Shown here one piece after another: positions 2,563 through 13,987 of a stretch of 22,157 bases of DNA. The translations under genes and the position numbers were made by a program. A model generated the notes under the pieces. That model saw nothing but the letters and a program-made list of their open reading frames with translations. It was not told where the DNA came from and ran no database searches. The stretch lies in the IMG/VR virus record IMGVR_UViG_3300034198_000511, positions 1 to 22,157 of that record, one strand, 5' to 3'. Within the stretch, counting starts at the first letter, position 1, and the number at the start of each line of letters is the position of its first letter. Source of the stretch: a virus.

Positions 2563-3320
2563 TGTACTTTAAAGATTTTCAAAATATTTTTTATGATTAT
2601 GATATTACACATCAAGTTGGATCTGGTACTCAAGCCAAGGGTATTGCATCTGTCTCTGGTGGTATCGTAACCTCAGTTGCTATTACTGATGGTGGCACTG
2701 GATATAGTGATGCATTAATATCATTCACAGCACCACAAATTGAACCTGGAGTTACTGCTACTGCTCGAGCAATTGTTTCTAGTGGTAATATCACTCAGAT
2801 TGTTATGATAAATGGTGGTGTTGGATATAGTACCGCACCAACAGTAATTATTTCTACTCCATGGAAAACTTTACCAACAACAACAAAATCATTTATTGTT
2901 AAAGATATAACTAGAAATATTCGTTTTCGTAGAGACATTTTAGCAAATATTGCAGTATATGATGAGTATGATATTATTGATGGTGAAACTCCAGAAATCG
3001 TTGCTGAGAGAATTTATGGTAATCCAGAATATCACTGGATTGTTATGTTAGCTAATGATAGATACGATTATAGAAATGATTGGCCATTAACATACAATAA
3101 CTTACAACAGTATATAACAGATAAGTATGGATCTGCTGCTAATAATGTACACCATTATGAAAATTCAAATGGGTTGACAGTAGATTCAGATTATCCTAGC
3201 GCAGTTCCAATAACTAATGCTAATTATGAGGAACAAGTGAATGAGGCAAAACGAAGAATTAAACTTATTGCACCTTCTCTTATTTCTACTGTATTGAGAA
3301 ACTTTAAAGATCAAATGTAA
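2562..3320 (+). CDS. 53: gp53 baseplate wedge subunit with an inserted Gly-rich repeat domain
   Basis: This 252-residue protein is about 55 residues longer than T4 gp53 (about 196). Residues 109-252 match the family: FIVKDITRNIRFRRDI, YDIIDGETPEIVAERIYGNP (LysM-like), HWIVMLANDRYDYRNDWPLT, LQQYITDKYG, then a C-terminal helix with KRRIKLIAPSLISTVLRNF. The N-terminal FQNIFYDYDI also fits. The extra length is one block, about residues 20-105, with two Gly-Gly-x-Gly-Tyr units (GGTGYSDA at 44-51 and GGVGYSTAPTVII at 85-97). gp53 clamps neighbouring wedges around the hub in T4. The gene overlaps gp48 and the gp27-like gene by one base on each side, so translation is probably coupled. Confidence 0.9.
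   Translation: MYFKDFQNIFYDYDITHQVGSGTQAKGIASVSGGIVTSVAITDGGTGYSDALISFTAPQIEPGVTATARAIVSSGNITQIVMINGGVGYSTAPTVIISTPWKTLPTTTKSFIVKDITRNIRFRRDILANIAVYDEYDIIDGETPEIVAERIYGNPEYHWIVMLANDRYDYRNDWPLTYNNLQQYITDKYGSAANNVHHYENSNGLTVDSDYPSAVPITNANYEEQVNEAKRRIKLIAPSLISTVLRNFKDQM
2652..2861 (+). repeat. 53: Gly-Gly-x-Gly-Tyr repeat insert inside gp53
   Basis: Two diverged units of about 42 residues occupy gp53 residues 31-100. Each has a 'GG-i-t-s-v-a-i-t-d-GG-x-GY-s-x-a-P-x-v-x-i' pattern. The same unit appears many times in gp8 (14792-15016 and 15275-16591) and once or twice in the gp7-position protein, but T4 gp53 lacks it as far as I recall. Confidence 0.7.
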
Positions 3321-4612
3321 TGGAAGAATCTAAATCATTAAGATTTGCTGGTGATGTTAATATTAATAAAATCCAGATTATTTCTAGTTCTGGGTTTTTT
3401 CAGAATGTCACTGCTCAGGTTATAAACATACAATATTATGAGGATATATTTTCTCCATTCATTAGTGGTAGTTTAATATTAAAAGATTCATTAGATTTAC
3501 CAAATTTATTTCCATTTGTTGGAGAAGAATATGTTGATTTAGATATTTCTACTCCTGGAATTGATAAAGATAATATTAAAGGTAGATATTATATCTACAA
3601 AATGACAGATAGAGAACTTCTTGGTGATAGATCTGCTACCTACCAGTTACATTTTATTTCTGTTGAAGCAATTATAGATTTAAATAAAAAAGTTAGTAAA
3701 GCAATTGCTGGTAATGCAGCAGAGGTTGTTAAAAAAATAGTTGCTGATAAAATAGATGGATTACAATCATCTAAAGAATGTTTCGTAGAGCCAACAACTA
3801 AAGCAATTAAGTTTATACCTAATTTTTGGTCACCTGTTAAGTGTATTCAGCATATAACAGAACAAGCTGTTAATCAGAATCAATCTCCTAGTTATATATT
3901 TTTTGAAAATAGATTTGGCTTTTATTTTCTTTCATTAGAATCTTTATATGACAATAATGTATATCAAGATTTTAAATACGACAAATATACTCGTGATAAA
4001 ACTGGATCTGGACCAACAAGTGGTGATGCGAAAAATCCTTCTGAGGATTATAAAAGAATAACACAGATCTCTATCCCAAAATCATTTGATTATATGGATA
4101 GAATTATGAATGGTACTTTTGCATCAAAGGTGATTTCTTTTGACCTTACCTATAAAAAATATCAGGTAAAGAATTATAATATGTTTGATAAGTTTGAAAA
4201 GAAAAAACACTTAAACCCAAATGCAATATCTTCTTCTAAATCTATTTTTAGAAATGCATCAAAGATTGTAAATTATCCTAGAGCCACTGATACTTTTGTT
4301 GGCTTTGGTGATACCTCTACATTCAAAACATTTCAAGAAAGATTATCACTGTTTAAACAATTGGAAGCAATGAAATTAGAGATTGAAGTTCCAGGTCGTT
4401 GTGATTATACTGTTGGGCAAAAGGTTAATGTAGAATTAACTATGATGGAACCAATAAAGAAAAGTGATAGTGATGCAGACACTGTGGATAAATTATATTC
4501 TGGAAACTATCTTATAGCAGCAGTCAATCACTATATTGATAGAGACATGCATACATGTCATATGGAATTAGTTAAAGATAGTTTACAAAAAAATCTTGAG
4601 AGTGGAAAATAA
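3320..4612 (+). CDS. 27: gp27-like baseplate hub protein
   Basis: This 430-residue protein lies directly before the gp5 spike and overlaps it by one base (TAATG). The N-terminal half shows a hub tube-domain pattern: QNVTAQVINIQYYEDIF (29-45), FISGSLILKDSLDLPNLFPF, GEEYVDLDI and YQLHFISVEAIIDLN (108-122). Next come IPNFWSPVKCIQHITEQAV (166-184) and SYIFFENRFGFYFLSLESL (191-209), a signature I associate with gp27/gpD-type hubs. The C-terminal half has GRCDYTVGQKVNVEL and SGNYLIAAVNHYIDRDMHTCHMELVKDSL, typical of hub proteins that hold the spike. T4 gp27 is about 391 aa. It would form the trimeric ring that joins gp5 to the tube. The family call rests on pattern and position rather than strong identity to T4. 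Confidence 0.78.
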   Translation: MEESKSLRFAGDVNINKIQIISSSGFFQNVTAQVINIQYYEDIFSPFISGSLILKDSLDLPNLFPFVGEEYVDLDISTPGIDKDNIKGRYYIYKMTDRELLGDRSATYQLHFISVEAIIDLNKKVSKAIAGNAAEVVKKIVADKIDGLQSSKECFVEPTTKAIKFIPNFWSPVKCIQHITEQAVNQNQSPSYIFFENRFGFYFLSLESLYDNNVYQDFKYDKYTRDKTGSGPTSGDAKNPSEDYKRITQISIPKSFDYMDRIMNGTFASKVISFDLTYKKYQVKNYNMFDKFEKKKHLNPNAISSSKSIFRNASKIVNYPRATDTFVGFGDTSTFKTFQERLSLFKQLEAMKLEIEVPGRCDYTVGQKVNVELTMMEPIKKSDSDADTVDKLYSGNYLIAAVNHYIDRDMHTCHMELVKDSLQKNLESGK

Positions 4613-7600
4613 TGTCTTCATTTTATACTGGTATTGTTGAAAATAGATCTGACCCATTAAGACTTGGTCGTTGCCAAGTCCGTATTGTAGGTTTACATAC
4701 ACACGATAAGAATCAATTACCAACTTCAGATCTACCATGGTCTATGCCAGTACAGCCAATTGGTTCTGCTGCAATGAATGGTATTGGTTTTACTCCTGTT
4801 GGTCCAGTTGAAGGAACTACAGTAATTATAATGTTTGCTGATCCAGAACAACAGTATCCAATTATGCTTGGAACTGTTGGTGGCATTTCTACTGCTCCCA
4901 AGGCTATTGATGATGACGATTCTAGATCTGAAATAACTTCTCAGAAAACTAAAGATATTTCTGTTAGAACAGTCCCTGGACCAACTACTGGAAAACAATT
5001 AACTTTATATGATCCAGAAACTGGATCAACTAGTATAACATCTGACTTAAAAGCCAATATGAGAATTATTGGTCACCAGATGACTGAGGGAGCATATATT
5101 GTTTCTGTTGATAGTGGAACACAAATAACTATTAGCCAAGAAGTTGCTGGATATGAAGAAAATATTTTAAAATTTGAAGATCCTCCAACTAATTTAAGCG
5201 CAGTAGCAACAAGTAAAGTAGAAAATGTATTAACAGATTCAAATGGTAAACCAGTAGTAGATGGCTCTGGCACTCCTATTAAATCAGGAAATCCTACACC
5301 TGATGCTACTACACCAGAAACACCGAAGTCTACTACAACAAATGATGCTATTCCTACAGTTCCACCACCAAAGTCTTCTAGTAATGTTTCAAAGTCTTCA
5401 GCAGGTATTAAAGCACTGATTGCTGCTTGTGATAAAGTTGGTTTAACTACTAGAGAACAGAAGTGTGCCTTGCTTGGTATTGCTGGTGGTGAAACTGCAT
5501 GGCAGTCTATCCAAGAAGCGTATAATTATAGTGATGCCAGATTAAGACAGATTTTTAGAGTAACAGATGAGGAAGCTGCCAAGTGGTCTAATGCACCATC
5601 AAAGGGTATAACAAGAGAACAATTTTTCTCTTGGATATATGGACCAACTAAACGAGGTAAAGGTTTCTTTGGACATACCACTGACGCTATGGGTGGTAAG
5701 TATTATGGTCGTGGATTTATTCAACTCACTGGTTATTCAAATTACAAACGATACAATGATTTAGCAAATAAACTAGGTTTAGGCATTGACATTGTAAATA
5801 ACCCAGATTCTCTTGATAATGATATCAATGTTTCTGCTTTAGTTGCTGCTTTATACATTAAAGACAGAACTCCTTCTAATGTTAAGTCAACGGATCATCC
5901 TGGATATTTTTATGCTGCAAAGAAAGCTGTTGGTGTTAACTCACCAGACATTGCAGCAAGAAAACTTGCATATTATGAATATTTTTATGGCTCTAAAGCA
6001 GCAACCACTCCAGAAAAAGATGCAGCACCACCAGCAGTTGAACCTCCAGCAGATGGAAGTAGTCCAACTCCTGGACCATCAACAGATTCTACCACTAGTG
6101 GATCAAACAATACTGGATTTAGAGATCCAAATAATAAGTATCCACTAAAAGATTATTTAAATGAGCCAGACACAAATCGTTTAGCTCGTGGTATCAAAGA
6201 AGGTACTGTCATAGAAAAGAAAGATGGTACAAGAGTTACAGGTGTTCCAAAAGCAAATGGTGAAGGTTCGTGGGATCAACCATTGGCTCCATTTGGTGCT
6301 CAGTATCCATATAATAAAGTTATGGAAACTGAATCTGGTCATGTACAAGAATGGGATGACACTCCAGGACAAGAAAGAGTTCATACATATCATCGTTCTG
6401 GAACATTCACTGAGGTAGATTCTCAGGGAACTCAAGTTAATTTTATTGTTGGCGATAATTTTGTTTTAATGGAACGAAATGGGTGTATCGAAGTTAAGGG
6501 TGAGTGTAATATTACAGTTGATGGTAACACTAATATTTACGCTAGGTCAGATGCAAACATTCAAGTAGAAGCCAATGCTAATATTAAAGTTGGAAACAAT
6601 TTAGATATTGGTGTAGCAAATGATGTTTATATGGCTGCAGGTGGAGATTTCTTAATTAAAGCAGCTGGTAATTTTAATGTACAAGCTGCAAATATTAGTC
6701 AGAAAGCTGATGCTGTAAATATTGAATCTTCTGGAGATATGAATATACTTGCTGGTGGAACTCTCCATGCTGATTACTCACAAGGACAATTTGGTAATGG
6801 TGCTTCTGGTGCCAGCGATGTTGAACTATCTCCACCTGCTGCTGGATCGCCTGTTAATCCAACTGTACCATTTTTAATTCCACCAGATAGAAAGTTTGAA
6901 GAGAAGGCGAATGCAGAAACTCCTCAAGATTTAGATACACCAGAAGGGCGAGCAGCTGCAGCACAATCTGCTAAGAAAGAAGGTACTCCAGATGCAGCAG
7001 AACCAAAGGCATCAGAATCTTCACCAACCCCTGCAGGTGGTACTGATACTAAAGTCCCAGTAAGTTGTGAGGTCATTTATCAAACAAAGAACTTCACAAA
7101 CGATTATAGAATGTCTAAAAACTTTACTCTTGGTATGTTAATTTGTGGTGGAGTTGGTGGTGATCATAAACTTCAAGACCAGATGCTTAGTGATGTTGCT
7201 TCTGGAACATCAGCTGGAAATCTTAGACTGTATACTATTCAAGAAATTATTTGTAATTTAGCTACTACTGCTCAAAATTTATTAGAGCCGATAGTTGATA
7301 TACTTCCAGGTGGTATGGGTGGATATAAGAAACAATGGATGATATCATCTGGATATAGATTAAAGGGTGTTATCCCTCAAGAATCTCCAACATCATCACA
7401 TTGCAAAGGATTTGCTCTTGATGTTGCATTAATTACTCCAGATCGTTATAACAAAACATATGAACTTGTACAAAAAATTGAAAAACTTATACCATATGAT
7501 CAGCTTATATTAGAGTATAGACACTCAAACCAATGTTGGATTCATATGGGATATGCAGGCAAAGGTATTAGAAAGCAAGCATTCACAATGGTTAACGATA

Positions 7601-7674
7601 AAACATATCAGGGTACATATCCAAAAGGTGGATATGTGCTAGTCAACGATATTCCTCCACCTGTTAAGAAATAA
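4612..7674 (+). CDS. 5: gp5 spike with OB fold, GH19-type muralytic domain, octad beta-helix and C-terminal M15-type peptidase
   Basis: This 1020-residue spike is much longer than T4 gp5 (575). Residues 1-95 are the OB fold (FYTGIVENRSDPLRLGRCQV, then ADPEQQYPIMLGTVGG). Residues 225-262 are a Pro/Thr/Ser linker. Residues 263-460 are a GH19 (chitinase-like lysozyme) domain: AGGETAWQSI with candidate catalytic E294, the NYSDARLRQIF helix, and GGKYYGRGFIQLTGYSNY (361-378). A second linker spans about 465-500. Residues 575-632 begin the C-terminal stalk (ESGHVQEWDDTPGQERV), and 633-720 form eleven octads, the gp5/VgrG triple beta-helix. After an acidic Pro/Ala linker (740-815), residues 900-985 look like peptidase M15: SGYR (913-916), SSHCKGFALDV with H930 and D937, QLILE (E968) and WIHMG (H978). 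Classic T4 gp5 has a GH24-type lysozyme and no peptidase. The protein should pierce and digest the envelope during injection. Confidence 0.92.
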   Translation: MSSFYTGIVENRSDPLRLGRCQVRIVGLHTHDKNQLPTSDLPWSMPVQPIGSAAMNGIGFTPVGPVEGTTVIIMFADPEQQYPIMLGTVGGISTAPKAIDDDDSRSEITSQKTKDISVRTVPGPTTGKQLTLYDPETGSTSITSDLKANMRIIGHQMTEGAYIVSVDSGTQITISQEVAGYEENILKFEDPPTNLSAVATSKVENVLTDSNGKPVVDGSGTPIKSGNPTPDATTPETPKSTTTNDAIPTVPPPKSSSNVSKSSAGIKALIAACDKVGLTTREQKCALLGIAGGETAWQSIQEAYNYSDARLRQIFRVTDEEAAKWSNAPSKGITREQFFSWIYGPTKRGKGFFGHTTDAMGGKYYGRGFIQLTGYSNYKRYNDLANKLGLGIDIVNNPDSLDNDINVSALVAALYIKDRTPSNVKSTDHPGYFYAAKKAVGVNSPDIAARKLAYYEYFYGSKAATTPEKDAAPPAVEPPADGSSPTPGPSTDSTTSGSNNTGFRDPNNKYPLKDYLNEPDTNRLARGIKEGTVIEKKDGTRVTGVPKANGEGSWDQPLAPFGAQYPYNKVMETESGHVQEWDDTPGQERVHTYHRSGTFTEVDSQGTQVNFIVGDNFVLMERNGCIEVKGECNITVDGNTNIYARSDANIQVEANANIKVGNNLDIGVANDVYMAAGGDFLIKAAGNFNVQAANISQKADAVNIESSGDMNILAGGTLHADYSQGQFGNGASGASDVELSPPAAGSPVNPTVPFLIPPDRKFEEKANAETPQDLDTPEGRAAAAQSAKKEGTPDAAEPKASESSPTPAGGTDTKVPVSCEVIYQTKNFTNDYRMSKNFTLGMLICGGVGGDHKLQDQMLSDVASGTSAGNLRLYTIQEIICNLATTAQNLLEPIVDILPGGMGGYKKQWMISSGYRLKGVIPQESPTSSHCKGFALDVALITPDRYNKTYELVQKIEKLIPYDQLILEYRHSNQCWIHMGYAGKGIRKQAFTMVNDKTYQGTYPKGGYVLVNDIPPPVKK

Positions 7675-7676
7675 TA

Positions 7677-8144
7677 ATGGCTTGGACTCCATCAAATACT
7701 GCATTGAAGGTTGTGGATCAGTTGCCTGTTTATACTAGCTATTCACAAACCTTTTCTTATGTTGATCCAGACCCATTAACAGATTATGCAGTGACAGGAA
7801 TAGTTGCAGATAAAACTAATGCTTTGATGGTTGTTGGTACTAATAATATTTCTGGTCAATATGATGCGCAACCCCATGGTGGAAGTAGTATTACATATTT
7901 AACTAAAGATGGTACCTATAATACTGTTACTAATTTTAATGATATAACAAACTCATATGAAATATGTTCTTATACAGCACCAACTGTTCAGACTGTGACT
8001 TACAGTTATACTGTTACTGCTAAAGATATAAATCTCATTGGTCCAGATGTGCAGCAAACTTATACTGTTGTTTCTACCTTTAATTGGGATATAGGTAAAG
8101 ATGCGTTATTAAATGCTATTGCGCAAACTAGGATTGGAAGATAA
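7677..8144 (+). CDS. Unrecognised beta-rich protein between spike and spike tip
   Basis: I do not recognise this 155-residue protein. It is rich in Thr, Val, Tyr and Asn with alternating polar and apolar residues, so it is probably all-beta up to about residue 135. It ends with a short amphipathic helix (WDIGKDALLNAIAQTRIGR, 137-155). There is no signal peptide, no membrane segment and only one cysteine (in YEICSY). It follows the gp5 stop by 2 nt and overlaps the PAAR gene by one base, so its translation is locked between spike and tip. That place suggests a small spike or hub component or a helper of spike-tip assembly, but this is inference from position only. Confidence 0.85.
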   Translation: MAWTPSNTALKVVDQLPVYTSYSQTFSYVDPDPLTDYAVTGIVADKTNALMVVGTNNISGQYDAQPHGGSSITYLTKDGTYNTVTNFNDITNSYEICSYTAPTVQTVTYSYTVTAKDINLIGPDVQQTYTVVSTFNWDIGKDALLNAIAQTRIGR

Positions 8145-8852: not shown

Positions 8853-10682
8853 ATGGCAAATAATAGAAAAATAACTGTAGCCGAATTAGATTTCGATGCT
8901 ATTAAAAACAATTTAAAAGAATTCTTAAAGGGGCAAACAGAATTTCAAGATTACGATTTTGAAGGTTCTGCGATGTCAGTACTATTAGATGTTCTTGCAT
9001 ATAATACACATTATAATGCTTTATACAATAACATGTCAATTAATGAGATGTTTTTAGATTCAGCAAGAAAAAGAAATAGCGTAGTATCATTATCTAAAAT
9101 GCTTGGATATACTCCAAGATCTTCTACCTGTGCAACTGCCACTGTAAATGTTGTTGTTTCTGGTGGAACAAGTACTCCATCTAATTTAACTATCCCAGCA
9201 TATAGTCAATTTGTTACTACTATTGATGGACAGGGACTAACATTTTATAACACAGGTTCTATAACTACAGTAAGAGTTGGTAATACATATACCTTTAGTG
9301 GTGTTACTCTAACAGAAGGAACACCAATCACGAACAGATTTACAGTTTCTTCTAGTTCTAGATACATTATACCAAATTCTGATGTTGATTTAAATACTTT
9401 GATGGTTAGAGTACAAGAGAGCGCACAGTCATCAGTTTATGAAGCATTTTCAAAATCAGAAACTATTGTTAATGCCAGTTCTGAATCAAAAGTTTATTGG
9501 ACTAAAGAAATTGATGATGGGTTATATGAAGTAACCTTTGGTGATAATAATATTGGTAGAGCATTGGATGTTGGTAATGTAGTTCATTTAGATTATTTTG
9601 TTTCTTCCAAAGAAACAGCTAATGGTGCTAGGGTATTTACATATAATGGTTCTACTCTTCTTTCTGGTGCTATAGTTAGCATCACTACAACTTCTCCTGC
9701 TGCCAATGGCGCAGATAAAGAATCTTTAGATAGTATTAGATTTAATGCACCAAAATTTTATTCTGCTCAAAATAGAGCAGTAACACCAGATGACTATAAA
9801 ACATTAATATATGCTAATGTTCCAGAAGCAAAATCTGTAGCTGTATGGGGCGGTGAAGATAATAATCCTCCTGTATATGGCAAAACATATATTTGTATTA
9901 GACCAAAAGATGCAACTAAATTAACAACAGTTCAAAAAGCTGCAATTATTTCTAGTGTTCTACAATCAAGAAATGTAGTTTCAGTTATTCCTGAGATTGT
10001 TGATCCAGAATACTTGAATATTGCTTTAAATGTTACTGTATACTACAATCCTCAAGATACTATTAGATCTGCTTCAGAAATAGCTAGTATTGTACAATCT
10101 GCTATCATGGCATATGATGCAGAAGATCTTCAAGTATTTGATGGTGTTTTTAGATTCTCTAAACTATCAAGAATTATTGATGCATCAGAACCTTCCATTG
10201 TTAATAACATATCTACTGTATTAATTAGAAGACAACTAACTCCAAGATATAATACTAGCGCACAGTATATCCTTAATATTATTAATCCAATTTATGCTGG
10301 AGATGGTGGTGGTGGATTTATTTCAACTGGATTCTTTATTGCGGGATCAGATGAAATTCACTTTTTAGATGATGATGGTCTTGGTTATGTGAGAATGTTT
10401 AGATATGGATCGAATGGTATTAAAATATATGTAGATCCACAAATTGGAATTATTGATTATGCTAATGGCACTGTTGATATAAGAAATTTACATATAACTG
10501 CTTTGGCAGATGTAGATTTAGAAATTTCTATTAAGCCACAATCAAACGATGTGGTATCTGCATTAACTCAAATTGCACAAATTGCTGAAGACCATTTATA
10601 TGTAACAGCAATTGCAGATCCAACAATAACTGGTGACCTTCGTGGTGGTTACAATTATACATTCGCAACAAGTAGATCATAA
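8853..10682 (+). CDS. 6: gp6 baseplate wedge subunit
   Basis: This 609-residue protein is somewhat shorter than T4 gp6 (660). The N-terminus is the clearest family match: ELDFDAIKNNLKEFLKGQ (11-28), FQDYDFEGSAMSVLLDVLAYNT (31-52), NMSINEMFLDSARKRNSVVSLSKMLGYTPRS (60-90). The middle part has baseplate_J-like stretches: VYWTKEIDDGLYEVTFGDNNIG and APKFYSAQNRAVTPDDYKTLI, VPEAKSVAVWGG and GKTYICIRPKD. gp6 dimers link the wedges into the ring around the hub. It starts directly after the gp25 stop and overlaps the next gene by one base. Residues 483-490 contain a flexible Gly run (GDGGGGF). Confidence 0.95.
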   Translation: MANNRKITVAELDFDAIKNNLKEFLKGQTEFQDYDFEGSAMSVLLDVLAYNTHYNALYNNMSINEMFLDSARKRNSVVSLSKMLGYTPRSSTCATATVNVVVSGGTSTPSNLTIPAYSQFVTTIDGQGLTFYNTGSITTVRVGNTYTFSGVTLTEGTPITNRFTVSSSSRYIIPNSDVDLNTLMVRVQESAQSSVYEAFSKSETIVNASSESKVYWTKEIDDGLYEVTFGDNNIGRALDVGNVVHLDYFVSSKETANGARVFTYNGSTLLSGAIVSITTTSPAANGADKESLDSIRFNAPKFYSAQNRAVTPDDYKTLIYANVPEAKSVAVWGGEDNNPPVYGKTYICIRPKDATKLTTVQKAAIISSVLQSRNVVSVIPEIVDPEYLNIALNVTVYYNPQDTIRSASEIASIVQSAIMAYDAEDLQVFDGVFRFSKLSRIIDASEPSIVNNISTVLIRRQLTPRYNTSAQYILNIINPIYAGDGGGGFISTGFFIAGSDEIHFLDDDGLGYVRMFRYGSNGIKIYVDPQIGIIDYANGTVDIRNLHITALADVDLEISIKPQSNDVVSALTQIAQIAEDHLYVTAIADPTITGDLRGGYNYTFATSRS

Positions 10683-13600
10683 TGACAACCTTGCTCGCTA
10701 AACCAAAGATATCTTCTTTAGTAAAATCTCAGTTACCTGAGTTTATTAGAGAAGACTATCAGACATTTGTTGCCTTTTTAGAGGCATACTATCAATATGT
10801 TGAAGAAAACGAAGTAGATTTAAAAACTTTAAGAGATTTAGATAATACTCTAGAAGAATACATTCGTTATTTTAAATCTGAGTTAGCCAGCAATTTACCT
10901 TATACTACAGTAGATACTAGATTTTTACTTCAACATATAAAAGAACAATATAATGCAAAGGGGTCAGAAGCCTCTTTTAAATTATTGTTTAGAATTTTAT
11001 TTAATAAAGAAGTAACAGTTGATTATCCATCTAAGCAAATTTTAAGAGCGTCTGATGGTAGATACAATCAAGATAACTCTGTATTTGCTCGTATTTTAAC
11101 AGGTAATCCACAAGACCCTGTTGGAAAATTAGTTGATGTTATAACTCCATCCAAAACTATTCGTGTTCTTGTAGATAGAAGACAAGATGTAGAAATTGAA
11201 GTTGATAGAGCGATTCAAGTTTCAGAAGATGTATATGAGTATTTAATTGATAGAAGATTCTTTGGTAATATTTCAGTTGGCGATAGACTTCGTTATCGTG
11301 ATGATGAAAATGGAATATATTTTACTGCAGAGATACTATCAACTACAACAGGTCTTCAAGTACTAACTGCAGGAACTGGATTTAGAGTTGGAGATATTTA
11401 CAATATTAAAAACTTTGATGGTACTGGTTCTATTTTAAAAGTTTCTACTGTTGATGAGAATGGTGGTATTGCCAAAGCGCAATTTATTAAATTTGGAACT
11501 GGATACTCTACTGATTTTACCACTACTATTTCTGCAACTTCAGGACAAGATATAGCAGGAACTGCTGGCACAGTTATTCAAAGACTTGATACTGCTATAA
11601 CAAGAGTTACTTTAACTGGAACTCTTGCAGTAACAAACAATAGTTTAACTGTTACGGGAACTGGAACATCATTTACTGCAGAAGTTGTTACTGGTGATTT
11701 AATATTTTTACCAAATGGAGTTTATACAGTAAATACTGTAGCTAGCACAACTTCATTAACTTTAACCTCTGTTTATCTTGGAACTACTGCTTCTGGTATA
11801 TCAACATATAGAGCAAGAGCATCTGGCGGTGGCACAGATAAACATACTACTATAAGCATTAGCGAAAAATTAGATGGTTTTGCCGAACTAGGAACATTTA
11901 GTAGTGCTGATTATTCTCTTGGTTCTACTGCTGCTACTCTAACTGGCACTCTTGCAGTAACTAATGGCAGTTCAACAGTAACAGGAACGAGTACTACATT
12001 TTTAACTTCTCTTGTTTATGGTGATGTTATAACTCTACCGAATGGAACTTATACATTTGGCAGAGCAGCAAGTAATACAAGTCTAACATTGGTTGAAACA
12101 CCAAGTATAGTTTCTCAATTAGTCAATTTAGATAATGGTTCTACTACTGTAACAAGAGTTACCACTGCACTATGGGGCACTTCATGGGTTGCCAATACTG
12201 CAGTAACACAAAACCAAAAACTATATTATGGTAATAATCTTTATGTAGTAGTAACAGCAGGTACAACCTCTACTTCTGCTCCATATGATACTGGAGTAAT
12301 TACTAATGGATCTGCAGTATTAAGATGGGTTTCCTCTGCTGATATTCCTTGGAATACTGGAGAAATTGTAGCTAGTGATGTTATTCGTATGCCAGATGGT
12401 AATACTTATACAGTATCATCAACAAGTTCAACTACTTTAACATTAAATACTCCATATACAGGAACTACTGCTACAAATCAGATAATATCTGTTGCATCGC
12501 CTACTAATTACACAGGAACTACTGCTTCTGGTTTAGCGTCAGTGGTATATACAAGACCAGGTGTTATAGATGGAACATATACTGGTTTAGTTCTTCGTGA
12601 ATTTGGTATTAGTTCTGCCGATGCAACTATAACTGATACTGATCCAGCAATTATTAAAGTAACTCTTGGTGCGCTGGCAAAATATCCAGGATACTATGTT
12701 ACGAATGATAGTTTCTTAAATGATGCTATTTACATCCAAGACAGTCGTTATTATCAAGCATACTCTTATGTTATTAAGATTGATGAAGCATTAGATACAT
12801 ATAAAACTGCTGTAAAGAATTTAATTCACCCAGCAGGCATGGCACTATTTGGTGAATATGATATTCGTAATGAATTCGATATTAGTGAAACATTAGAATC
12901 TTTAGTTAAAATTCTTGCTGTCACTAATTTAGATTCAGTTACTATGACTGAAGTGGGGCTTGCACTAGATTCTACTAGAATCAATCCTAGTTTAACTGCA
13001 TTATCTGGAACCTTAACAGCTGGTTCTACTGCAGGTATGCTAAAAACAATTGAAGATACCACTCTCAATTTTAATGGATTCGCCGACACTGGTGGGCAAT
13101 CAGTTGTTATGGTTGAACTTGGAAATGCTTTAGATTTAACTAGAGATAATCCAGATTTTGATGTAGTAAAACCAATTAATGATACTAGTTTAAGAAATCT
13201 TTTAAATGATGGAGTTACAGTTGATACATTCTATGTAACAATGACAGATGGTGGAGACAACCAAACATCTGCAAGAACTAATCCTGCGCTAGTTGCAAAC
13301 ACTGGAACTCTATTAAGTGGATCCGATGCAGGATTTATGAAGTCGTTGAATTATAACCATCTTATTAATGATGGTGTTACAGCTGATACTGAATCAGTTA
13401 TGATGCTAGATGGTGGAGATGATCAAACATCTGCAAGAACTAATCCAGCTTTAGTTGCGCCTAGTGGAACATTATTGAGCGCATCCGATGCAGGATTTAT
13501 GAAAGCGCTGAATACTACTACATTCACTTTTGCTGGTGCATTAGATGATAATACTGTAACTATGGCAGATGGTGGAGACAACCAAACATCTACTAGAACT

Positions 13601-13987
13601 AATCCAGTATTTATTGCAGCTTCTGGAACTTTACTGGCTAGTTCAGACTCAGGGGTTTATAAAGTATTAGATTCTGCGTCTCAGGTTCGTTATCTAAATG
13701 ATGGAGTTACTACAGATTCTGATACTCAGTCTCTATCTGATACTGATGCTGCTAACGCAACTGACCTAAATAGAACAAGACCCGCATTTGCCGTAACATT
13801 TAGAACATGGGACTCTACTAATGGAAGTTTAACCCATGTCTTAAACGACGGAGTTACTCTGGATAATGATACAACAACAATTTTAAGCAATGGTGGCTTT
13901 TTAGACTTAAATCCATATGCAGAAGCAGGATGGTTTTTAAATGATGGTGGTTTATATGTCGGAAACCAGATAGATTTCACAGGCTAA
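10682..13987 (+). CDS. 7: Large baseplate wedge protein at the gp7 position, with mosaic beta modules and C-terminal tandem repeats
   Basis: This 1101-residue protein lies between gp6 and gp8, where T4 gp7 (1032 aa) lies. Residues 1-130 (PEFIREDYQTFVAFLEAYYQYVEE, TRFLLQHIKEQYNAKGSEASFKLLFRILFN, ILRASDGRY) and 655-730 (SRYYQAYSYVIKIDEALDTY, LIHPAGMALFGEYDI) belong to a family I know from marine T4-like phages. Between them, residues 309-376 and 417-475 are two copies of a module with VTGTxTxF, GD and TSLTL, 556-600 holds a partial third copy, and 498-551 a tryptophan/tyrosine module also seen in gp8 and the DUF4815 protein. Residues 752-1040 are tandem repeats of about 54 residues. The last part repeats LNDGVT with changes. 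I see no direct resemblance to the T4 gp7 sequence, so the gp7 call rests on position and size. Confidence 0.72.
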   Translation: MTTLLAKPKISSLVKSQLPEFIREDYQTFVAFLEAYYQYVEENEVDLKTLRDLDNTLEEYIRYFKSELASNLPYTTVDTRFLLQHIKEQYNAKGSEASFKLLFRILFNKEVTVDYPSKQILRASDGRYNQDNSVFARILTGNPQDPVGKLVDVITPSKTIRVLVDRRQDVEIEVDRAIQVSEDVYEYLIDRRFFGNISVGDRLRYRDDENGIYFTAEILSTTTGLQVLTAGTGFRVGDIYNIKNFDGTGSILKVSTVDENGGIAKAQFIKFGTGYSTDFTTTISATSGQDIAGTAGTVIQRLDTAITRVTLTGTLAVTNNSLTVTGTGTSFTAEVVTGDLIFLPNGVYTVNTVASTTSLTLTSVYLGTTASGISTYRARASGGGTDKHTTISISEKLDGFAELGTFSSADYSLGSTAATLTGTLAVTNGSSTVTGTSTTFLTSLVYGDVITLPNGTYTFGRAASNTSLTLVETPSIVSQLVNLDNGSTTVTRVTTALWGTSWVANTAVTQNQKLYYGNNLYVVVTAGTTSTSAPYDTGVITNGSAVLRWVSSADIPWNTGEIVASDVIRMPDGNTYTVSSTSSTTLTLNTPYTGTTATNQIISVASPTNYTGTTASGLASVVYTRPGVIDGTYTGLVLREFGISSADATITDTDPAIIKVTLGALAKYPGYYVTNDSFLNDAIYIQDSRYYQAYSYVIKIDEALDTYKTAVKNLIHPAGMALFGEYDIRNEFDISETLESLVKILAVTNLDSVTMTEVGLALDSTRINPSLTALSGTLTAGSTAGMLKTIEDTTLNFNGFADTGGQSVVMVELGNALDLTRDNPDFDVVKPINDTSLRNLLNDGVTVDTFYVTMTDGGDNQTSARTNPALVANTGTLLSGSDAGFMKSLNYNHLINDGVTADTESVMMLDGGDDQTSARTNPALVAPSGTLLSASDAGFMKALNTTTFTFAGALDDNTVTMADGGDNQTSTRTNPVFIAASGTLLASSDSGVYKVLDSASQVRYLNDGVTTDSDTQSLSDTDAANATDLNRTRPAFAVTFRTWDSTNGSLTHVLNDGVTLDNDTTTILSNGGFLDLNPYAEAGWFLNDGGLYVGNQIDFTG
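11606..12106 (+). repeat. 7: Two copies of a VTGTxTxF...GD...TSLTL beta module in the gp7-position gene
   Basis: Copy one covers residues 309-376 and copy two 417-475. Both read TLTGTLAVTN-x-S-x-TVTGT-x-T, then GD-x-I-x-LPNG-x-YT and TSLTL. A diverged half copy (IRMPDGNTYTVSS, TTLTL) sits at 556-600, and another clear copy in the DUF4815 protein at 18777-18929. The pattern suggests small repeated beta domains used as spacers or for surface display. Confidence 0.75.
12173..12334 (+). other. 7: Trp/Tyr module shared by three virion proteins (copy in the gp7-position gene)
   Basis: Residues 498-551 start with WGTSWVANTAVTQNQKLYYG, continue with LYVVVTAGTTST-x-AP and a TG-x-x-TNGSAVLRWV end. Matching modules lie in gp8 at 15470-15622 and 15875-16033 and in the DUF4815 protein at 18084-18242. 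The pattern is W, then G/N-Q-x-x-x-Y, LY-x-V-T, GT, AP-x-H-x-SG, DG-T-A-x-L-x-Y/W. It looks like a small carbohydrate-binding-type beta domain, but that function is inference. Confidence 0.65.
12935..13801 (+). repeat. 7: Tandem repeat of about 54 codons in the gp7-position gene
   Basis: Units begin near residues 753, 808, 852, 906, 959 and about 1014 of the protein, mostly 53-55 apart. The central three are close: DGGDNQTSARTNPALVA, DGGDDQTSARTNPALVA and DGGDNQTSTRTNPVFIA, each followed by SGTLL-x-S-x-A/S-G-F/V. At the DNA level the first and second of these share two exact blocks longer than 20 nt, both at a distance of 162 nt, which points to recent duplication. The outer units are diverged. 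Confidence 0.85.

Follow-up and report, generated by a model that had tools for sequence, protein, structure and literature searches.

The locus examined here raises the question of whether one gp5-type spike protein can carry two different cell wall enzymes, a GH19 glycosidase and an M15 peptidase, and how the second of them could be placed beyond a needle whose end is claimed by a PAAR protein. The whole stretch of DNA that was analysed (the window, a genome fragment of 22 kb recorded as a virus in IMG/VR) contains an operon for a T4-like baseplate, comprising tail-tube cap, gp53, hub/tail protein, gp5, PAAR, gp25, gp6, and wedge proteins. The hub/tail gene (3320-4612) is separate from the gp5 gene within this phage baseplate operon, and the latter is an ORF free of internal stops. 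Its extent and the residues singled out by the initial annotation, namely E294, GRGFIQLTGYSNY, H930, D937, E968, and H978, were found exactly where they had been placed (Table 1). In our opinion, this protein is best explained as a spike that is part of the virion and bears two enzymes, the peptidase in three copies tethered next to PAAR at the tip, with a probability of roughly 0.7.

Table 1 Features of the spike gene and its downstream neighbours, with the evidence for each
Feature	Residues	Position in window	Strand	Evidence or remarks
gp5-type spike protein	1020 aa	4612..7674	+	OB + GH19 + needle + linker + M15
OB domain	1-95	4612..4896	+	Gp5_OB; alignment with T4 gp5 10-105
GH19 glycosidase domain (predicted)	262-460	5395..5991	+	Pfam, AF2 model, Z to phage GH19 endolysins
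Proposed general acid	E294	5491..5493	+	invariant 24/24; on Glu of G-x-E-S in 4ok7, 8p8e
Proposed second acidic residue (E..NYS motif)	E302	5515..5517	+	invariant 24/24; on E of ENFNYS/ENLNYS in 4ok7, 8p8e, 9ms6
GRGFIQLTGYSNY, GH19 substrate-site motif	366-378	5707..5745	+	G, R, Q, N, Y invariant
Inter-domain segment	461-553	5992..6270	+	GFRDPNNKYP... part
Triple beta-helix needle	about 554-732	6271..6807	+	matches T4 gp5 376-566; conservation
Pro/Ala-rich linker	733-818 (~86)	6808..7065	+	partly conserved ETPxDxxTPEGR segment; dN/dS
M15 (LAS-fold) zinc peptidase domain (predicted)	819-1000	7066..7611	+	phrog_894, AF2 model, 1lbu
Proposed Zn ligand	H930	7399..7401	+	27/27; on 1lbu H154 via Mcat1 M15; on hedgehog Zn histidine
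Proposed Zn ligand	D937	7420..7422	+	27/27; on 1lbu D161 via Mcat1
Proposed general base	E968	7513..7515	+	25/25; on Glu of hedgehog YYES
Proposed third Zn ligand (WxH motif)	H978	7543..7545	+	25/25; invariant across carriers
ORF, function not assigned, phrog_1168		7677..8144	+	between gp5 and PAAR; absent from some relatives
Separate PAAR tip protein, gp5.4-like	100 aa	8144..8446	+	phrog_281 7e-17; matches Acj61 gp5.4

Sequence comparison places the protein in the T4 gp5 spike family. Pfam detected Gp5_OB (PF06714) with an E value of 5.3e-21, phmmer aligned T4 gp5 (1k28) to residues 4-94 in the OB domain and 554-696 in the needle, the latter corresponding to residues 376-566 of 1k28, and the needle matched PHROG 430 at 5e-84; the protein thus has the N-terminal OB domain and the triple beta-helix needle of this family. 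The GFRDPNNKYP... part of the segment that precedes the needle is structural, since it is also present in enzyme-free hubs such as that of HTVC008M.

Could such a protein be an assembly artefact or a gene fusion peculiar to this contig? The only point in favour is that the contig is itself a 22-kb fragment. A second scan gave at least 460 M15 relatives, of which 80 were kept, and among 64 ORFs whose 5' end is complete, from many samples, 63 contain both GH19 and M15; the exception (L012) has an interrupted frame. This pattern search missed the full-length homologues L022, L023, L025, L026, and L028, which are included in the conservation alignment. Since the four-part architecture is also found in the complete genome of Synechococcus phage BUCT-ZZ01, it is not a chimera and not unique to this contig, and we reject an artefact as hardly credible.

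Some further observations concern the locus and its relatives. The small phrog_1168 ORF was detected in only 28 loci among the relatives, and a wedge-type protein of 1101 aa (window 10682-13987) contains near-repeats (ARTNPALVA..GTLLSGSDAGFMKSLN). The nearest relatives of the gp6 protein are found in pelagiphages and Melnitz. A cyanophage host, an idea that came from BUCT-ZZ01, was discarded, as psbA was not found in ten long relatives, the longest of 174 kb.

For the central domain, the Pfam match to Glyco_hydro_19 (2.7e-6) exceeds the family cut-off, and this match was present in all 29 relatives sampled. The AF2 model (pLDDT 92.6) matched the SPN1S endolysin (4ok7), TseP (8xcl), and KTN6 gp46 (8p8e) with a Foldseek probability of 1.00, and VIA Z scores of 18.0 (7r6s), 16.6 (9eoi), 16.3 (4ok7), and 15.7 (TseP) support a predicted GH19 fold, with Z values of 16-18 to GH19 endolysins. 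Profile alignments with 4ok7 and 8p8e place both E294 and E302 on endolysin Glu residues. The initial annotation had listed E294; as a correction to it, the second proposed GH19 acid is E302, which lies in the endolysin-type motif E..NYS. Q371, N377, and Y378 are, like these two residues, invariant in 24/24 relatives, and the sequence holds the catalytic Glu pair and the GRG..QL(T)..xNY motif of the family. A GH19 domain is thus predicted in the place where a T4-type lysozyme might be expected. Since other gp5 proteins have different contents in this central slot or leave it empty (pf16, HTVC008M), the result excludes a T4-type lysozyme, but not gp5 orthology.

The Pfam family name, chitinase class I, might suggest that the central enzyme is a chitinase or acts on a glycan other than peptidoglycan. 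However, chitinases reached Z scores of only 10-12 against the model, 3-6 Z units below the endolysins and TseP (those of plant type were among the lower-scoring ones), and the domain lies where T4 gp5 has its lysozyme, a slot in which relatives have Phage_lysozyme2 or a VgrG3-type domain. Because the best structural and profile matches are phage GH19 endolysins and TseP, and because E294 and E302 align with the endolysin Glu residues, a peptidoglycan glycosidase is the likelier prediction, while we consider activity on chitin or another glycan very improbable.

For the C-terminal domain, the sequence by itself is a weak guide. PHROG 894, annotated as endolysin, matches residues 832-1000 at 4e-12, and tblastn aligned the domain over 90% of its length to Cr30, pf16, and PA5oct. 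The Pfam family M15_3 remained below its threshold when only the window protein was searched (E 0.17; domain score 15.8 vs a cut-off of 23.2 bits); the pf16 homologue of the domain clears this cut-off with 24.3 bits. A PDB profile search with the domain returned chance matches only (ribosomal L26), and the M15 assignment therefore rests on the fold, the PHROG match, and a bridging alignment. The AF2 model (pLDDT 90.3) was matched best by the Streptomyces Zn DD-peptidase 1lbu, with a VIA Z score of 11.1 and an rmsd of 3.2 over 131 aligned residues, well clear of the next structure; Foldseek gave a probability of 0.99 for the same pair, but a modest E value of 0.005 and a TM score of 0.43. The structures that follow are hedgehogs (Z about 6), LysECD7, ChiX, and VanY proteins, all members of the LAS superfamily, and the fold of the model is of the M15/LAS type. 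In the bridging alignment, the Moraxella Mcat1 M15 protein connects H930 and D937 with H154 and D161 of 1lbu, which are zinc ligands of that enzyme, and the alignment with hedgehogs also places the Glu and His pair of the M15 domain. The putative SxHxxGxAxD motif, the catalytic Glu/Asp, and the (W)xH motif can all be recognised, and W976 is likewise invariant (25-27 of 25-27 relatives). With confident structure predictions for both domains, matching solved GH19 and M15 enzymes, the proposal that one gp5 spike combines these two families is supported and withstands the fold part of the refutation that the initial annotation had set for it. Together with the conservation described below, the match goes well beyond what chance would give.

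After 1lbu, hedgehog proteins form the best-matching structural group, and they have the zinc residues in common with the M15 domain, which leads to the alternative that the M15 domain serves as a wall-binding or receptor-binding module retaining the LAS fold without catalysis. Hedgehogs are not known to be peptidases, though fold and zinc residues are shared. However, 1lbu, by far the best match, is an active DD-peptidase, the ligands and the catalytic Glu are all invariant in the clade of the window protein and across needle and PAAR carriers, and the nearest small homologues of the domain are annotated as peptidases or endolysins. A purely binding function is therefore improbable in our estimation.

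The relatives used to assess conservation had been retrieved by peptide patterns that contain none of the active-site residues, and a set selected by the M15 motif was excluded from the counts because it is biased for M15 residues. All catalytic residues that had been proposed are invariant in relatives found in this way; three distant T4-type gp5 proteins (L037-L039) are without the two enzyme domains. In comparisons with the two closest relatives, dN/dS was 0.04-0.08 for GH19 and 0.08-0.10 for M15, while the linker reached 0.24-0.33 vs 0.03-0.10 in its flanking domains, which indicates purifying selection on both enzyme domains, the linker being less constrained.

This linker had been described as long and acidic. 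Its length was borne out, but it is only mildly acidic (14 D/E and 8 K/R in residues 729-818) and instead rich in Pro and Ala (14 P, 15 A). Its first part (residues 733-783, window 6808-6960) contains a clade-conserved motif, P.R..EE....ETP.D..TPEGR, which may contact PAAR or be a site of processing.

The initial annotation had also noted the PAAR gene of this phage, and saw in it a conflict with an enzyme beyond the needle that only folding back or cleavage could settle. A PAAR gene is located downstream in 69 of the 70 relatives with enough sequence, and the needle terminus DYxxGQFGNGA is strongly conserved in the alignment of relatives, which rules out the M15 domain as a replacement for the PAAR tip. 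In T4, gp5.4 is bound by the last beta-strand of gp5 (PMC4576200), and DYxxGQFGNGA is a candidate for this last needle strand and for PAAR docking. The extension would thus begin directly after the site where PAAR presumably docks, an arrangement that resembles specialized VgrG proteins, in which additional C-terminal domains come after the spike; tip-mounted enzymes are standard among VgrG and PAAR proteins of type VI secretion systems (T6SS) (PMC10433429), and the supposed conflict is not real. The two options mentioned above are joined by a third, in which the M15 domain is tethered beside PAAR at the tip, and this is the simplest view, given that other phages have the same domain fused directly to PAAR. 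T4 gp5 undergoes proteolysis in maturation, so the M15 domain at the tip could also be removed by cleavage.

Removal would be expected if the M15 domain were a maturation device, aiding the folding or register of the needle trimer or acting as an assembly protease, and were then cut off in the linker without ever entering the cell. Cleaved C-terminal chaperone domains are known in fibrous phage proteins (PMC4576200), and the long, fast-evolving linker with its conserved segment would fit this scheme. However, the same M15 domain also occurs joined to PAAR and to other small proteins that lack a needle to be folded, and its invariant active-site residues are of the peptidoglycan type. Moreover, the PA5oct PAAR-M15 record bears the note 'ESI-MS/MS', which suggests detection by proteomics in a sample that the note leaves unstated. 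We regard a role confined to maturation as unlikely.

For the tethered two-enzyme spike, we infer catalysis, zinc binding, presence in the virion, and any cleavage of the spike protein from sequences and structural models. Since the spike protein is presumably trimeric, three GH19 domains would be arranged around the base of the needle, and flexible linkers would keep three M15 domains close to the PAAR tip. The division of labour, with GH19 acting on glycan and M15 on peptide, would follow from the predicted families. We propose that sheath contraction drives PAAR and needle through the outer membrane, upon which the tethered M15 peptidases would be the first to arrive at the wall, where they would cleave cross-links or stem peptides (D-Ala-DAP or L-Ala-D-Glu). 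The GH19 domains would come next, cutting glycan strands and widening the hole for the tube. The spike would then resemble the specialized VgrG or PAAR proteins of T6SS in its action, but drill an entry hole rather than poison the cell.

Homologous M15 domains occur in several settings. The hubs of Caulobacter phage Cr30, Pseudomonas phage pf16, and Methylophilales phage Melnitz have M15 past the needle like the window protein, but differ from it elsewhere: Cr30 carries Phage_lysozyme2 in the central slot, pf16 lacks an enzyme there, and the gp5 of Melnitz is divided between two genes, its OB half bearing a VanY-like domain. The two Melnitz genes (L005) extend over 4962-6002 (VanY-like, OB half) and 6002-8005 (M15, needle half). 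The hub of HTVC008M lacks both enzymes and does not extend past the tip of the needle. The central slot is thus exchangeable, being occupied by GH19, Phage_lysozyme2, a VgrG3-type domain, or nothing. One gp5-like ORF (L142, IMGVR_UViG_3300047444_000069) combines a T6SS VgrG3-like C-terminal domain (PF21277, 1.6e-45) in the central slot with a C-terminal M15, and provides a direct domain link from phage spikes to armed VgrG proteins. PA5oct, Peetri, Astolliot, Milchi, and Vibrio phage 207E48.1 also have a homologous M15 at the spike tip, but carry it on the PAAR protein rather than the needle. Other ORFs join M15 to divergent PAAR-like proteins (L146-L148, L151, L159, L166, L170; L146, the one tested, matched phrog_281 at 1e-4) or to an N-terminal domain of ~130 aa (MSLEIFKQNMLSYM...; L133, L134, L136, L138-L141, L144, L157, L167, L169, L171, L172). 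The latter gave no PHROG match in L134, the one tested, and is possibly another tip or hub protein. In the M15 tree carriers cluster (10 changes vs about 40 in shuffles), and the clade of the window protein is a well-supported needle lineage; deep branching is weak, and we make no claim on the direction of carrier switches. Judging from what is known of gp5 and PAAR anatomy, what the M15 carriers appear to have in common is their place at the tip of the spike.

Phages of Gram-positive bacteria are known to have virion lysins with two activities, and T6SS to have wall-cutting effectors with two functions. In the literature searched we found no description of GH19 and M15 on one gp5, which is not proof that none exists. 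In reviews, endopeptidase virion lysins were described as almost limited to Gram-positive phages and nearly absent in Gram-negative ones (PMC5380687, PMC6116005), and jumbo-phage PAAR proteins as standalone and unfused (PMC7824862). At the sequence level, M15-armed needles and PAAR proteins contradict both generalisations, and they link the spikes of phages with the armed VgrG and PAAR spikes found in T6SS. We give about even odds to the broader idea that a two-slot armed spike is general in contractile phages, with an exchangeable basal glycosidase and a conserved tip zinc peptidase that has moved among needle, PAAR, and other tip proteins; such a spike would be the phage counterpart, and a possible source, of the specialized VgrG and PAAR design in T6SS. 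The cultured phages BUCT-ZZ01, Cr30, pf16, and PA5oct offer an experimentally accessible case in which to ask how wall cutting is shared out between the tip and the shaft of a spike.

Among known systems, T4 gp5 (tail lysozyme/central spike, 1k28) resembles the window protein in its OB fold, an enzyme in the middle, a triple beta-helix needle, and a PAAR protein of the gp5.4 type. It differs in having T4 lysozyme in the centre where the window protein has GH19, and the latter extends ~290 residues past the needle, carrying M15. The baseplate hub of BUCT-ZZ01 (UTS51949.1) shares all four parts and retains intact motifs for GH19 and M15, but its enzymes are only 27-30% identical to those of the window protein, its annotation is merely baseplate hub subunit, and its PAAR gene is located elsewhere in the genome. 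The T6SS effector TseP (8xcl) has a similar GH19-like lysozyme domain and is described by its depositors as having a dual function, but is not a phage spike. Specialized ('evolved') VgrG and PAAR proteins of T6SS, such as VgrG3, carry an enzymatic domain behind the beta-helix or on the PAAR tip, and the window protein likewise has an effector-type domain C-terminal to its beta-helix. In contrast, specialized VgrG proteins have a fused gp27-like base and a T6SS context, while gp27 and gp5 are separate genes in the window; no immunity gene was noticed in passing there either. A specialized VgrG or PAAR intoxicates a competitor, whereas the window enzyme presumably opens the way into the host. 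By this analogy, the window spike would work like a specialized VgrG, but is not one.
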